DNA of 64,000 bases from Pseudomonas graminis (GTDB taxonomy: Bacteria; Pseudomonadota; Gammaproteobacteria; Pseudomonadales; Pseudomonadaceae), in assembly GCF_002093745.1 (NCBI RefSeq), contig NZ_MTSB01000018.1, forward strand, positions 52,934-116,933, in the 5' to 3' direction. Of the stretch, positions 9,008-62,252 are shown in pieces. The position numbers and the translations under genes are program-made. Within the stretch, counting starts at the first letter, position 1. Each line of letters begins with the position of its first letter. The notes under the pieces were generated by a model, which worked only from the letters and a program-made list of their open reading frames with translations, was not told the origin of the DNA and made no database searches.

Positions 9008-9523
9008 AAATAGCTCCAGACAGCAATGGCGCGAGTTTACCGCATTGGCTCATTTGCTGCCTTGGGTTGCGTTCGTCGTTATGCACATGTCTCCGATACG
9101 GTGCGGCATCATGTCTTGCCCGTAACCACTGGTGCAGATGTGCTTTAGATTTGCTTTTGATCGCGATGGCACTGACGACACAGATTGCGACGTAAGTGAC
9201 GGCTGAGTCCTGACGCTGATCCGGGGGGAACTCGGCAGGACGCCGAGTTAGCTGCACCGGGCCATGGATGGCCCGTTGCAGCGACCCCCGGATCAGTGTC
9301 AGGACGAAGGAACCCGACGAAGTCGGGCCGGAAACGGAGCCAGGGGCTTTGGTTACTTTGGCCCCATCAAAGTAACTCGCCGAGGGGCGAAAAGGTGACT
9401 TGAGTCGTAAACAAACATCACTGACATCGCAAAACCGCTGTGTGACGCGGAGCGTCACGAACAGCACACCCAATGAAGAGCGCTGGCACGAGAATCAGTT
9501 GCGCGGGACAGATCATTGTCTGT
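9008..9523. other. Structured intergenic region between apeB and rluA
   Basis: This 516-bp stretch has no credible gene. Both neighbours are on the minus strand. It contains the long inverted-repeat element described separately (9207-9305), further short hairpins (GGGGC at 9342 with GCCCC at 9360; CCCGAC with GTCGGG near 9313) and a GTGACGC/GCGTCAC palindrome at 9442-9458 resembling the core of the repeats at the right end of the window. It includes the apeB promoter region on the minus strand. Confidence 0.6.
9207..9305. repeat. Long inverted repeat enclosing two hairpins
   Basis: The 21-bp arm at 9207-9227 and its partner at 9285-9305 pair at 20 of 21 positions. Inside are two further stems: AACTCGGC (9229-9236) with GCCGAGTT (9242-9249), and GCTGCA plus CGGGCCA (9251-9264) with TGGCCCG and TGCAGC up to 9282. 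The whole can fold as a three-way junction. Its look fits the dispersed intergenic elements common in Pseudomonas that are often mis-predicted as small ORFs; the family name is not known to me. Confidence 0.7.
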
Positions 9524-31275: not shown

Positions 31276-31990
31276 GTAGTACCGTCGGTTTCCGGGCTGC
31301 CGGAAACGGCGTTCGGCACACACGACTTCTCACGGTCGGTGTCAGGGCACGTCAGGAGTGCTTGAACACTCCAGTGTCTAGCGAGGTCCTCGCCCAGAAG
31401 GGGCGGAGGGTCGCGACTACGTTTCCTGCTTGCTGTGGTGGCATAAGACACCCTTTCAGCAAAAGCTTTGTCAGGAGGAGGAATCGACCATCGGTAGCGG
31501 ACGAGATGAAGCGTCTAGAACAAGCCTTGTGCTACACATTCCGATGGTTGTGCGTCTCCACCCTACACGTATCCCTGATAATTCGGGTGCTGCCGCGCGC
31601 AGAATCCGCAGCGGGTTGGCATTTACCGCAGCCTTCGATAGGGAAGGCTGCGCATCATGGCTTGAGGCGTTGTTCCCGAAGCATTCGCTCGTAGCGTCTG
31701 AAAGCGACTGCACTTTGTGAACTGGCCATGAACTGTCCGCACCGGCAGCGAGCTGTCTGCTCTGCTGTCAGGCGTGTTTCCGGCCTCATGTCACCTGCGC
31801 TCGTAACGTTTTCAGCGTGCTCCGTTGTCACCGAACACTGCGTAGGACGGCCTCCCGTCCTTGTGAATTGCGTTGGTCAGGGCCGGTTGTCAACCGTTGA
31901 TCCGCTGTCCGGCCGCTTTTGGCGGCGTTCGCGACTATAGCAGCAATCATTAAGTGCTTCAAATCCATAAAAATTGTTATGATTTGCCGC
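31276..31990. other. Long gene-free region with the rne leader
   Basis: This 715-bp gap separates divergent rne and rluC. E. coli rne has a 5' leader of about 360 nt through which RNase E represses its own mRNA, and a comparable leader could occupy 31276 to about 31650 here. I see short stems (CCTTC/GGAAGG near 31632; GCCGC/GGCGGC near 31912) but cannot fold it with confidence. Short ORFs on both strands show no family features. Just before rluC, TATGAT at 31978-31983 resembles a -10 box. Confidence 0.5.
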
Positions 31991-35390: not shown

Positions 35391-35918
35391 ATGTTGAATG
35401 ACCCGATTCCATCTCACGTTGACCCGCGCAAATTGTCTGATCGCGGCACTACCCTTCAGGGTGAAGTGCTGCTGGGCGATTTGAAGAGACTCTGCGACCC
35501 GCTTGCCGACACTGTCGGTACGGTGCAGGCGAAGTTCATTTTCGAGCGTGACGAACGCCGTTCTGTGGTTATCCACAGTTCGATAGACGTCCCGGTCAAG
35601 ATGGTTTGCCAGCGTTGTCTTGAGCTGGTGACCCTGCCGATCCACAGCGAATGCAGTTATGCGGTGGTGAAGGAGGGTGCGAATACCCAGTCGTTACCGA
35701 AAGGTTATGACGTGCTGGAACTGGGCGAAGATCCATTGGATCTGCTGGCATTGATCGAGGAGGAGCTATTGCTCGCCTTGCCCATTGTGCCTGCTCATCA
35801 TCCTGAAGAATGCCAGCAACCGGCGGGTCTCGATGAGCCCGAACCGAGCGTGGACGAGGTAACGCGGTCCAACCCGTTCAGTGTATTGGCGCAGTTAAAG
35901 CGTGACCCAAACGTTTAG
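35391..35918 (+). CDS. yceD: DUF177 (YceD) family protein
   Basis: A 175-residue protein of the DUF177/YceD family, always found just before rpmF. It contains the paired motif VKMVCQRCLELVTLPIHSECSYAVV near residue 65 and an acidic C-terminal region (LGEDPLDLLALIEEELLLALP, HHPEECQ). In plants a homologue takes part in 23S rRNA/L32 biogenesis; the bacterial role is thought to concern rRNA or L32 synthesis. The next gene starts 13 bp downstream. Confidence 0.9.
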   Translation: MLNDPIPSHVDPRKLSDRGTTLQGEVLLGDLKRLCDPLADTVGTVQAKFIFERDERRSVVIHSSIDVPVKMVCQRCLELVTLPIHSECSYAVVKEGANTQSLPKGYDVLELGEDPLDLLALIEEELLLALPIVPAHHPEECQQPAGLDEPEPSVDEVTRSNPFSVLAQLKRDPNV

Positions 35919-35931
35919 GAGTTAATCAATT

Positions 35932-39094: not shown

Positions 39095-39146
39095 CTTACC
39101 CACTGGCCAGATGCCTGAACATTTCCACTAGGAGTTAAAACTAGGT

Positions 39147-39383
39147 ATGAGCACCATCGAAGAGCGCGTCAAGAAAATCGTTGCCGAGCAACTTGGCGTC
39201 AAAGAAGAAGAGGTTGTCAACACTGCTTCTTTCGTTGAAGACCTGGGCGCTGACTCCCTGGACACCGTCGAGCTGGTTATGGCTCTGGAAGAGGAATTCG
39301 AGACCGAAATCCCTGACGAAGAAGCGGAAAAGATCACTACCGTTCAAGCAGCAATCGACTACGTCACTAGCCATCAGGCTTAA
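39147..39383 (+). CDS. acpP: Acyl carrier protein
   Basis: A 78-residue acidic four-helix carrier protein. The 4'-phosphopantetheine attachment site is Ser37 in [18 protein letters not shown]. The protein starts [18 protein letters not shown] and ends TSHQA. It carries growing acyl chains for fatty acids, lipid A and other acyl products made by neighbouring genes. The leader contains CCACTAGGAGTTAAAAC (39125-39141), which includes the Shine-Dalgarno and is complementary, with small gaps, to the linker of the RgsA-like RNA; published work, as I recall, reports acpP as a direct RgsA target in P. aeruginosa. A terminator follows. Confidence 0.98.
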
Positions 39384-44716: not shown

Positions 44717-44730
44717 TTGTGCCCTTGCCC

Positions 44731-45516
44731 ATGCTTGTAGATTCTCACTGTCACCTTGATCGCCTTGACCTCACCCAGCACGATGGCTCCCTGGATGCAG
44801 CCCTTGAGGCCGCGCGGGGCAGAGGGGTGGGGCATTTTCTGTGCATCGGCGTCAGCGCCGACAATGCGGGCGCTGTCAAGGCGCTTGCCGAACGCTATGA
44901 CGATGTAGACTGCTCGGTCGGCATTCATCCGCTGGACGTCAAACCGGGTGAAATGCCCCCGCTGGACTGGCTGCTCAAGGAACTGGACCACCCGCGTGTG
45001 GTGGCGATTGGTGAAACCGGTCTGGATTACCACTACGAGCCCGAGGCCGCCGAGCTGCAACAGGCGTCCTTCCGGGTGCATCTTGAAGCGGCCAGAATCA
45101 CTGAAAAGCCGGTGATCATCCATACCCGCGGCGCTCGCGCCGACACCTTGAGCCTTCTGCGTGAAGCGTCCCTGCCTTGGGCGGGCGTGCTGCATTGCTT
45201 TACCGAAGACTGGGAAATGGCCAGGGCGGCGCTGGACCTTGGTTATTACATCTCGCTGTCGGGTATCGTCACGTTTCGCAACGCCGACGCCCTGCGTGAT
45301 GTGGCCAGGCAGGTGCCCGCGGATCGTCTGCTGGTCGAGACCGATTCGCCTTACCTCGCTCCCATTCCCTATCGGGGCAAGCCCAATCTGCCGCAGTACG
45401 TACGTGAGGTGGCAGAGTTTCTGGCAATGTTACGCGGCGAGTCTTATGAGCGCTTTGCCGAGCAGACCACCGCCAACTTTGCTCGCCTGTTCCCGCTGGC
45501 ACATCTTCAAACCTGA
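44731..45516 (+). CDS. tatD: TatD family metal-dependent hydrolase
   Basis: About 261 residues of the TatD (YcfH-type) DNase family, a TIM barrel with two metals. The N-terminal VDSHCHLDRLDL, AIGETGLDYHYEPEAAELQ with the metal Glu, VIIHTRGA, GVLHCFTEDWEMA and LVETDSPYLAPIPYRGKPN mark the active site. The start is set at ATG 44731, directly before VDSHCHL; a GTG at 44719 adds four residues and cannot be excluded. It is the last gene of the fab-tmk-holB run. Confidence 0.92.
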   Translation: MLVDSHCHLDRLDLTQHDGSLDAALEAARGRGVGHFLCIGVSADNAGAVKALAERYDDVDCSVGIHPLDVKPGEMPPLDWLLKELDHPRVVAIGETGLDYHYEPEAAELQQASFRVHLEAARITEKPVIIHTRGARADTLSLLREASLPWAGVLHCFTEDWEMARAALDLGYYISLSGIVTFRNADALRDVARQVPADRLLVETDSPYLAPIPYRGKPNLPQYVREVAEFLAMLRGESYERFAEQTTANFARLFPLAHLQT

Positions 45517-45536: not shown

Positions 45537-45653
45537 AAAAAAAACCCGGATTCTGGGGGGTGAAGCCGGGTCAAGACCATTAGGAGTAAACAAAGGCACG
45601 CGGTCCGTTGGTGCCTTTGCAGGCGCCTCATTTGGGGGGAATGAGGCGCCAGC
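45537..45653 (-). ncRNA. rgsA: RgsA (P16)-like small regulatory RNA
   Basis: The tatD-lysE gap encodes a minus-strand RNA of about 117 nt. Its predicted parts are hairpin 1 with an 11-bp perfect stem (GGCGCCTCATT / AATGAGGCGCC) and a C-rich loop, hairpin 2 (CAAAGGCAC / GTGCCTTTG), an unpaired linker (TTTACTCCTAATGGTC), and a terminator stem (CCCGG-TTC / GAA-CCGGG) followed by eight T. A sigmaS-like -10 lies just upstream. In P. aeruginosa the RpoS-dependent sRNA RgsA (PA2958.1) occupies the gap between PA2958 and the tatD homologue PA2959, which this position matches. Ends are approximate; the name rests on location and architecture, not on alignment. Confidence 0.78.
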
Positions 45654-45656
45654 GCT

Positions 45657-45667
45657 TTAAGTATTGA
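45657..45667 (-). promoter_or_regulatory. SigmaS-type -10 element for the RgsA-like RNA
   Basis: On the minus strand TCAATACTTAA matches the sigmaS extended -10 consensus KCTATACTTAA at all but one position. The -35 region 17 bases upstream (CTGGAC) is weak, as is common for sigmaS promoters. It places the start about 7 nt on, near 45653. Confidence 0.65.
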
Positions 45668-45851
45668 CCAGGATGGACAGCCGTCCAGTGCCCGATGGTC
45701 GTTTTTTAAACAGTTTTGGAATACTAAAACGGTTCTTGAGTCCTGGATAAACGCAAGAGGGCGTGCCAATCAACGATCAATCGTACGCCCCTCTGTGCTG
45801 CGCGTCCTGATCATCGCTACACATACGTCATTGGGCTGGTCGAGGTTGTCA

Positions 45852-46647: not shown

Positions 46648-47310
46648 ATGCAGAAAGAACCTCGTAAGGTCCGTGAATTTCGTCGCCGTGAGCAGGAAAT
46701 TCTCGACACCGCGCTAAAGCTTTTCCTGGAGCAGGGTGAAGACAGCGTCACCGTCGAGATGATCGCGGACGCCGTCGGCATTGGCAAAGGGACCATCTAC
46801 AAGCACTTCAAGTCCAAGGCGGAAATCTACCTTCGCCTGATGCTCGACTACGAGCGTGATTTGAACGAACTGCTGCATTCTGCCGACGTCGACAAGGACA
46901 AGGAGGCGCTTTCGCGGGCCTACTTCGAATTCCGCATGCGCGATCCACAGCGCTATCGCCTGTTCGATCGCCTGGAAGAAAAAGTGGTCAAGGGCAATCA
47001 GGTGCCAGAGCTGGTCGAAGAGCTGCACAAGATCCGCGCCTCCAACTTCGAACACCTGACGCTGCTGATCAAGGGCCGCATCACCGAAGGCAAGCTTGAA
47101 GACGTTCCGCCTTACTACCACTACTGTGCTGCCTGGGCGCTGGTGCATGGCGCGGTTGCGCTGTACCACTCGCCGTTCTGGAGCAACGTGCTGGAAGATC
47201 AGGAAGGCTTTTTCAACTTCCTCATGGACATTGGCGTGCGCATGGGCAACAAGCGCAAGCGTGACATCGACGTGTCTGCAGAACCCAAGCCTGCCCCCGC
47301 TGCGGAATAG
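46648..47310 (+). CDS. TetR family transcriptional regulator
   Basis: A 220-residue regulator. The N-terminal HTH (FRRREQEILDTALKLFLEQG, VTVEMIADAVGIGKGTIYKH, FKSKAEIYLRL) is a clear TetR domain. The C-terminal helical domain probably binds a ligand (FEHLTLLIKGRITEGKLED, HYCAAWALVHGAVALYHSPF); its nature is unknown. The protein ends with a short basic and Pro/Ala tail. CATAAT at 46604 is a weak -10 candidate. No obvious regulated partner is adjacent apart from the exporter upstream and the lipoprotein downstream. Confidence 0.9.
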   Translation: MQKEPRKVREFRRREQEILDTALKLFLEQGEDSVTVEMIADAVGIGKGTIYKHFKSKAEIYLRLMLDYERDLNELLHSADVDKDKEALSRAYFEFRMRDPQRYRLFDRLEEKVVKGNQVPELVEELHKIRASNFEHLTLLIKGRITEGKLEDVPPYYHYCAAWALVHGAVALYHSPFWSNVLEDQEGFFNFLMDIGVRMGNKRKRDIDVSAEPKPAPAAE

Positions 47311-61848: not shown

Positions 61849-61924
61849 GGGTGATTAGCTCAGCTGGGAGAGCAGCTGCCTTACAAGCAGCGGGTCGGCG
61901 GTTCGATCCCGTCATCACCCACCA
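61849..61924 (+). tRNA. tRNA-Val (TAC)
   Basis: A 76-nt cloverleaf: acceptor GGGTGAT pairs with ATCACCC, D arm AGCTCAGCTGGGAGAGC, anticodon loop CTTACAA with anticodon TAC, T arm GGCGGTTCGATCCCGTC, and an encoded CCA. Confidence 0.97.
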
Positions 61925-61983
61925 TCGTTGAGTTTGAAAGCTGAAGTATGAGGGCTTTCAAATGCAGAAACCGTATACAATGC

Positions 61984-62060
61984 GCAGCGGTAGTTCAGTC
62001 GGTTAGAATACCGGCCTGTCACGCCGGGGGTCGCGGGTTCGAGTCCCGTCCGCTGCGCCA
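61984..62060 (+). tRNA. tRNA-Asp (GTC), copy 1
   Basis: A 77-nt cloverleaf: acceptor GCAGCGG pairs with CCGCTGC, anticodon loop CTGTCAC with anticodon GTC, T-loop GGTTCGAGTCC, and encoded CCA. Confidence 0.97.
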
Positions 62061-62175
62061 TATTTGTACAGATCGGGTTATCCGGATCTGCGATTGAAAA
62101 ACCCAAGGGTCTTTTAGTCATGTGTACAGGAAGCAAACTATAGAAGGTTTGTTTCAAACAGGTTTACAGCGATGC

Positions 62176-62252
62176 GCAGCGGTAGTTCAGTCGGTTAGAA
62201 TACCGGCCTGTCACGCCGGGGGTCGCGGGTTCGAGTCCCGTCCGCTGCGCCA
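62176..62252 (+). tRNA. tRNA-Asp (GTC), copy 2
   Basis: Identical in sequence to the copy at 61984-62060, and preceded by the same ATGC. The spacer between the copies is 115 bp. It is followed by the cluster terminator. Confidence 0.97.

Follow-up and report, generated by a model that had tools for sequence, protein, structure and literature searches.

The Small RNA RgsA in a Pseudomonas Genome and the Distribution of its Pairing Core within the Pseudomonadales

The enterobacterial RNA SdsR (RyeB), an RpoS-dependent, Hfq-bound sRNA of stationary phase, may be considered, sequence comparison aside, an analogue of the Pseudomonas RNA that is the subject of this study, RgsA (P16). The name RgsA was given by Gonzalez (2008), who describes its dependence on RpoS, its position next to tatD, and a conserved upstream sequence (URS). 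According to Park (2013; PMC3709562), RgsA in P. syringae DC3000 is RpoS-dependent as judged by reporter, qRT-PCR, and ChIP, and it is enriched with Hfq; deletion of rgsA increases sensitivity to peroxide and slightly raises heat resistance, with virulence unaffected. The same paper notes that the Rfam family carries 87 extra nt upstream of the RgsA start. Its methods give the P16 locus tag as PSPTO_5560, its results as PSPTO_5660. An Hfq peak at the 3' end of RgsA appears in a report on P. aeruginosa (PMC6890931).

The targets of RgsA are described in reviews that cover Lu 2016 and Lu 2018, according to which RgsA acts with Hfq to repress fis and acpP by pairing through positions 71–77 and also lowers rpoS. 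The same review passage on Lu 2016 mentions a site at 141–175 and an RNA length of 197 nt, so that the numbering is uncertain. Two further RNAs, RsmY and RsmZ, rise like RgsA with the Gac system. They differ from it in carrying several GGA motifs that titrate RsmA, whereas RgsA has one and reportedly does not relieve hcnA.

I will refer to the whole stretch of DNA analyzed here, 64,000 nt of a Pseudomonas genome, as the window. It encodes RgsA, a stress-induced sRNA already studied in Pseudomonas. The locus itself is therefore known, and so is the main point concerning it, since Park (2013) studied RgsA in P. syringae itself. The initial annotation of the window had proposed an RgsA-like sRNA and had named a covariance search as one means to check it. 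That search, with the Rfam model RF00628 (RgsA/P16), found a match on the minus strand at 45546–45738 that spans the whole length of the model (positions 1–194) and scores 194.6 bits (E = 2.2e-47), against a gathering cut-off of 88.4 bits. The match is the only one in the 5.69-Mb genome, and the family was found in 295 of the 298 genomes searched from that genus. The high score, taken with this near-universal presence, points to Pseudomonas as the source of the window. One genome of the genus (G294; 6.1 Mb, 100% complete) has no RgsA match, owing either to a contig break or to a true loss. Another (G020), labelled as the same species as the window genome, has a match of 162.9 bits as compared to 194.6 and a different acpP leader as well, differences larger than expected within one species.

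The window copy is like the described RgsA in sequence, structure, promoter, tatD neighbor, and size, and unlike the Rfam consensus in having one U fewer in the flank of the linker discussed below. What had been stated of Pseudomonas RgsA when the window was first annotated (RpoS dependence, the tatD neighbor, the size) agrees with Gonzalez (2008) and Park (2013), and the 5' end then proposed, 45653, lies 2 nt from the position of about 45651 obtained by carrying over the offset of Park (2013). The RNA is placed at 45537–45653 on the minus strand (about 117 nt), on the basis of the RF00628 match, the fold, and the start so carried over. Simple scans for sigma70 promoters and terminators did not report the site, so it is indeed easy to overlook, as had been said of it. 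Other RNAs are also encoded in the window: the rne-II leader (RF01756) on the minus strand at 31285–31572 (286.5 bits), a TwoAYGGAY motif (RF01731) on the plus strand at 9197–9315 (51.6 bits, the cut-off being 43), and three consecutive tRNA genes, two with identical scores, on the plus strand at 61849–62249.

The predicted fold of the 117-nt RNA has an energy of −49.2 kcal/mol, as compared to a mean of −29.96 for shuffled sequences (z = −5.56), and none of 200 dinucleotide shuffles was as stable. Among 25 dereplicated sequences from the Pseudomonadaceae, 14 of the 24 consensus pairs have both sides changed in at least one sequence with pairing kept. The hairpins first observed in the window are thus real, and far from what chance would give. 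Hairpin 1 (45622–45650, minus strand) has 11 perfect pairs and a C-rich loop, CCCCCCA; hairpin 2 (45590–45620, minus strand) has a perfect stem of 9 pairs plus a G-U and carries GGA in its loop. Both are supported by the fold and by covariation in the Pseudomonadaceae. Next comes the linker ACUCCUAAU (45579–45587, minus strand; as RNA ACTCCTAAT, the complement of those positions), a near-invariant and mostly unpaired stretch that serves as putative seed and contains an anti-Shine-Dalgarno word. It is continued by GGUCUU (45573–45578, minus strand), near-invariant across the order, and by an intrinsic terminator (45537–45572, minus strand) with a C-rich loop and a run of eight T (45537–45544), recognized from the sequence and the fold. 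The window RNA thus has the two hairpins, linker, Rho-independent terminator, and length of about 120 nt by which RgsA is recognized, with the linker and the T run where the initial annotation put them. Its description of the linker as exposed holds for the most part: the mean unpaired probability over the nine bases is about 0.84, with a drop to 0.43–0.44 at the two C of CUCC, which can pair with the GG that follows.

The same features were followed in a set of 53 relatives, dereplicated so as to be less than 90% alike (25 from inside the family Pseudomonadaceae, 28 from outside). The linker is unpaired on average at 66%, as compared to 43% for the whole RNA, and at more than 50% in 44 of the 53 sequences. 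C-rich loops are kept too: 49 of them have CCCC within the first 48 nt, and 44 have it in the region that forms the terminator. Mean column identity over the set is 39%, while the core remains near-invariant: the sequence CTCCTAATGGTCTT is found exactly in 23 of the 25 sequences inside the family and 16 of the 28 outside. The core counts lean upwards because the loci were found by core spelling (101 of 102 were located through a list of such spellings and anchored on the best motif resembling CAATACTT, and one, L094 of genome G355, was left out as lacking a recognizable core). The RF00628 model itself spans about 87 nt of promoter DNA, and in its outer helix positions 39–43 are paired with GGUC of the core; this helix cannot form in the RNA, because positions 39–43 are not transcribed. 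A small peptide was considered and rejected: read by eye, the frame opened by the ATG of the core reaches the terminator without meeting a stop.

The sequence upstream of the RNA contains an RpoS-type −10 region and a conserved URS, both characteristic of RgsA. The −10 region is TCAATACTTAA (45657–45667, minus strand), one base from the sigmaS consensus (KCTAYACTTAA), as had been pointed out. At the −35 position lies CTGGACG (45682–45688, minus strand), kept in the Pseudomonadaceae and reduced to TGGA outside. The URS, GTATTCCAAAACTGTTTAAAAAACGACC (45697–45724, minus strand), named by Gonzalez (2008), gives a sharp consensus in the 25 sequences from the Pseudomonadaceae and an AT-rich trace only in the 28 from outside. 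The promoter profile shows the −10 motif as conserved both inside and outside the family; it was, however, anchored on that motif, so its conservation there leans upwards as well and is not independent support. On the 3' side the convergent gene tatD (ORF at 44719–45516, plus strand) adjoins the T run at a distance of about 20 nt, the neighbor that had been expected, and is kept in some other families. On the 5' side a divergent ORF (46648–47310, plus strand) encodes a TetR-type regulator.

Counted from 45653, the linker occupies positions 67–75. If the numbering in the reviews is that of the roughly 120-nt RNA, then the linker probably overlaps the region 71–77 needed for repression of fis and acpP. 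I have little doubt that the locus is rgsA, the gene for an Hfq-bound RNA of about 117 nt, transcribed with sigmaS, whose linker would block the translation of growth genes, and that the family predates Pseudomonas. On entry into stationary phase, RNA polymerase with sigmaS would transcribe the RNA, whose two hairpins and terminator would display the largely single-stranded linker ACUCCUAAUGG; the linker would then base-pair at the Shine-Dalgarno region or in the early codons of growth genes and so block their translation. The known targets, fis and acpP, would be among them. Of this account, the analysis itself establishes what the RNA is, how it folds, how conserved and how widespread it is, and that it is complementary to acpP; the roles of RpoS and Hfq and the regulation of both genes are taken from the literature. 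I infer that pairing by the linker operates in the window strain and outside Pseudomonas as well.

The gene acpP (78 aa; ORF at 39147–39383, plus strand) lies in the window itself, 6 kb from rgsA, and its ribosome-binding region CCACTAGGAGTTAAAAC (39125–39141, plus strand) is complementary to the linker. In several other Pseudomonas the acpP leader reads CCATTAGGAGTGAAAAC, a near-perfect complement. Pairing energies were calculated for 28 of 30 genomes (G056 had no RgsA locus in the set and G395 no CUCC) against translation start sites, which for every species were the 672 of the window genome, found by a simple gene caller in 864 kb of the 5.69 Mb, in stretches chosen partly for gyrB and the window. 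Ranked in this way, acpP comes second or third of 672 in 7 of 10 Pseudomonadaceae and at 36, 27, and 29 in the other three, and its pairing stands out from that of decoy linkers (p ≤ 0.04) in 9 of the 10. The window strain is among the lower cases, with acpP at rank 36, or 51 in a wider test. A weaker predicted target is rpmF, whose ribosome-binding region is GTTTAGGAGTTAA (35913–35925, plus strand): it ranks from 4 to 81 in the 10 Pseudomonadaceae, with p ≤ 0.04 in 5, and in the window strain at 51, or at 43 in the wider test, to which it was added by hand. For fis the site falls in the early codons, so that it ranks 6 of 673 when 70 coding bases are considered and 317 of 672 with 20. Outside the family, p ≤ 0.04 against decoys was reached by acpP in 6 of 18 genomes, rpmF in 1 of 16, and gyrB in 1 of 17.

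Searches by sequence alone brought out no general excess of sites. The sequence ACCATTAGGAGT, with up to two mismatches, occurs in the window at 4 places including rgsA, as compared to 1.65 expected, a count not significant by itself since 10 of 100 shuffles reach it. Over the whole genome, complements of the core with up to three mismatches number 4, one of them at rgsA, while the reversed control gives 18, hence no overall excess; the start of a 102-aa frame (L227) is among these places. The pattern YTAGGAGTKAA, picked after rpmF and acpP had been seen, has 3 occurrences genome-wide, at rpmF, at acpP, and at a place with no obvious gene; the control has 4.

The strongest predicted partner of the linker is gyrB, which first surfaced in the whole-genome list of core complements. 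Its start region would pair with the core through AAGACCAUCGGGAGU at −23.4 kcal/mol, rank 1 of 672, the second best partner having −19.0. It ranks from 1 to 5 in 9 of the 10 Pseudomonadaceae and 26 in the tenth, with p ≤ 0.04 in 9 of them. The conservation of this site is not independent, because GACCATCGGGAGTGA doubles as the end of the upstream frame, which I take to be recF. Complementarity makes gyrB a candidate target of RgsA, and no more. It was rejected as a proven one: when linkers were shuffled with CUCC kept, 14 of 200 attained an equal best energy among the 672 start sites, the coding of recF confounds conservation, and the pairing stood out in 1 of 17 genomes outside the family. 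A literature search on RgsA together with gyrB gave nothing related, judged by title.

That 14 of 200 shuffled linkers equal the best partner bears also on the notion that the linker is a general anti-Shine-Dalgarno decoy, pairing weakly with many mRNAs or mimicking the 16S tail and having no particular targets. The presence of the anti-Shine-Dalgarno word CUCC and the mean pairing energy of −10.2 kcal/mol over the 672 start sites are in keeping with it. I nonetheless consider it unlikely, since the conserved stretch AAUGGUCUU reaches well past CUCC, beyond what pairing with a Shine-Dalgarno sequence needs, since the high rank of acpP recurs in most of the Pseudomonadaceae, and since the reviews describe a specific regulation of fis and acpP.

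It is a little less probable still that RgsA acts chiefly through binding of RsmA/CsrA to the GGA of hairpin 2 and not through pairing by the linker. GGA does occur in the hairpin 2 part of 43 of the 53 relatives, and in members resembling that of Zooshikella the hairpin is GUACGUAGGAUUGUGUAC, near the CsrA consensus. However, the most conserved part of the RNA is the linker, not GGA; the 117-nt window RNA carries its only GGA in the hairpin 2 loop, whereas an RNA that titrates RsmA would have several exposed copies; in several families AAGGA seems, by eye, to be paired within a stem; and overexpression of RgsA leaves the repression of hcnA unrelieved, according to Gonzalez (2008). Loci L103–L105 and those similar to them are peculiar in this region. 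The GGA context of their hairpin 2 resembles a CsrA site, and the loop sequence UAGGA could pair with the UCCUA in the linker, making possible a pseudoknot that hides the seed.

RgsA is not limited to Pseudomonas. A search of 145 genomes from the GTDB order with RF00628 gave matches in 40 (E ≤ 0.001), of which 7 exceeded the Rfam cut-off. Most of the matches (35 of 40) are outside the Pseudomonadaceae and spread over 17 family codes; 3 of the 35 exceed the gathering score, and the other 32 fall below it with E-values from about 1e-3 to 1e-18. Several of the weak matches have an altered core (G395, G423, G429, G300, G329), and that in G355 has none. In a sample of the class, 2 of 369 genomes matched, both from the Pseudomonadaceae, with 6 candidates scored per genome under stricter filters that may miss weak members. 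An unaltered copy of the core ACTCCTAWTGGTCTT is present in 77 of the 390 genomes scanned from the order, 60 of them outside the family, as compared to 5 for the reversed control; one contig (C1 of G864) has two exact cores about 41 kb apart.

An exact 20-mer scan of named genomes found at least 117 stretches, and among the matches listed are stretches from Microbulbifer, Haliea, Halioglobus, Endozoicomonas, Zooshikella, Aestuariicella, and Sessilibacter, with a small number from Pseudomonas and Atopomonas. Among the 117 loci listed, located by the core only, 111 have a −10-like motif (ATACT or ATAATT) in the expected stretch, 104 a strict terminator, and 99 both, whereas at random places the motif occurs in 11% and the terminator in 0.6% (each alone). 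Gene neighbors were considered at 37 loci of the order: holB, pilZ, or tatD lies on the 3' side in 16 and a divergent TetR homologue on the 5' side in 16, with either kept in 26 (3 of these in the Pseudomonadaceae) and neither in 11, figures to be read without a random-locus control. Outside the family a window neighbor is kept at 23 of 34 loci, and in 19 genomes there the distance between acpP and the RNA is no more than 14 kb in 8 and at least 55 kb in 4, the two being on different contigs in the remaining 7. Most but not all of the loci outside the family, then, have the core, the −10 motif, the terminator, and the neighbors.

That these loci are unrelated RNAs sharing a short motif by chance or convergence is very improbable, for although their hairpins align poorly outside the family, in line with the low column identity, and 11 of 37 loci have no tested neighbor in place (neighbors being without a random-locus control), the order of parts, −10, and terminator are alike in 99 of the 117 listed loci (a few of them Pseudomonas or Atopomonas), full-length RF00628 matches occur, neighbors are kept in 26 of 37 loci, and the reversed pattern is found in 5 genomes as compared to 77 for the core. 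The RNA is therefore regarded here as older than Pseudomonas, since the core occurs in many families of the order with the same pattern of promoter, loop, and terminator. None of the titles listed in literature searches concerned RgsA outside Pseudomonas, a weak negative. The order-wide family with its nearly fixed pairing core, along with the candidate targets, is what this study newly adds to a known RNA.

A broader proposal, rather doubtful as a whole, may be put as follows. RgsA would go back far in the history of the Pseudomonadales, with a core of about 15 nt that has hardly changed, and would be encoded near acpP-holB-pilZ-tatD in many lineages; in Pseudomonas the core would pair also with the start of gyrB and more weakly with that of rpmF, and entry into stationary phase would lower gyrase, Fis, and fatty-acid synthesis together. 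If this is true, a single RNA would brake both supercoiling and growth, and, should gyrB be confirmed as a target, an RNA would tie RpoS to DNA supercoiling. The distribution matters more than the locus in the window. It has been hidden by the Rfam cut-off and by a model that contains the promoter, and it offers a natural experiment on what fixes the seed of an sRNA.
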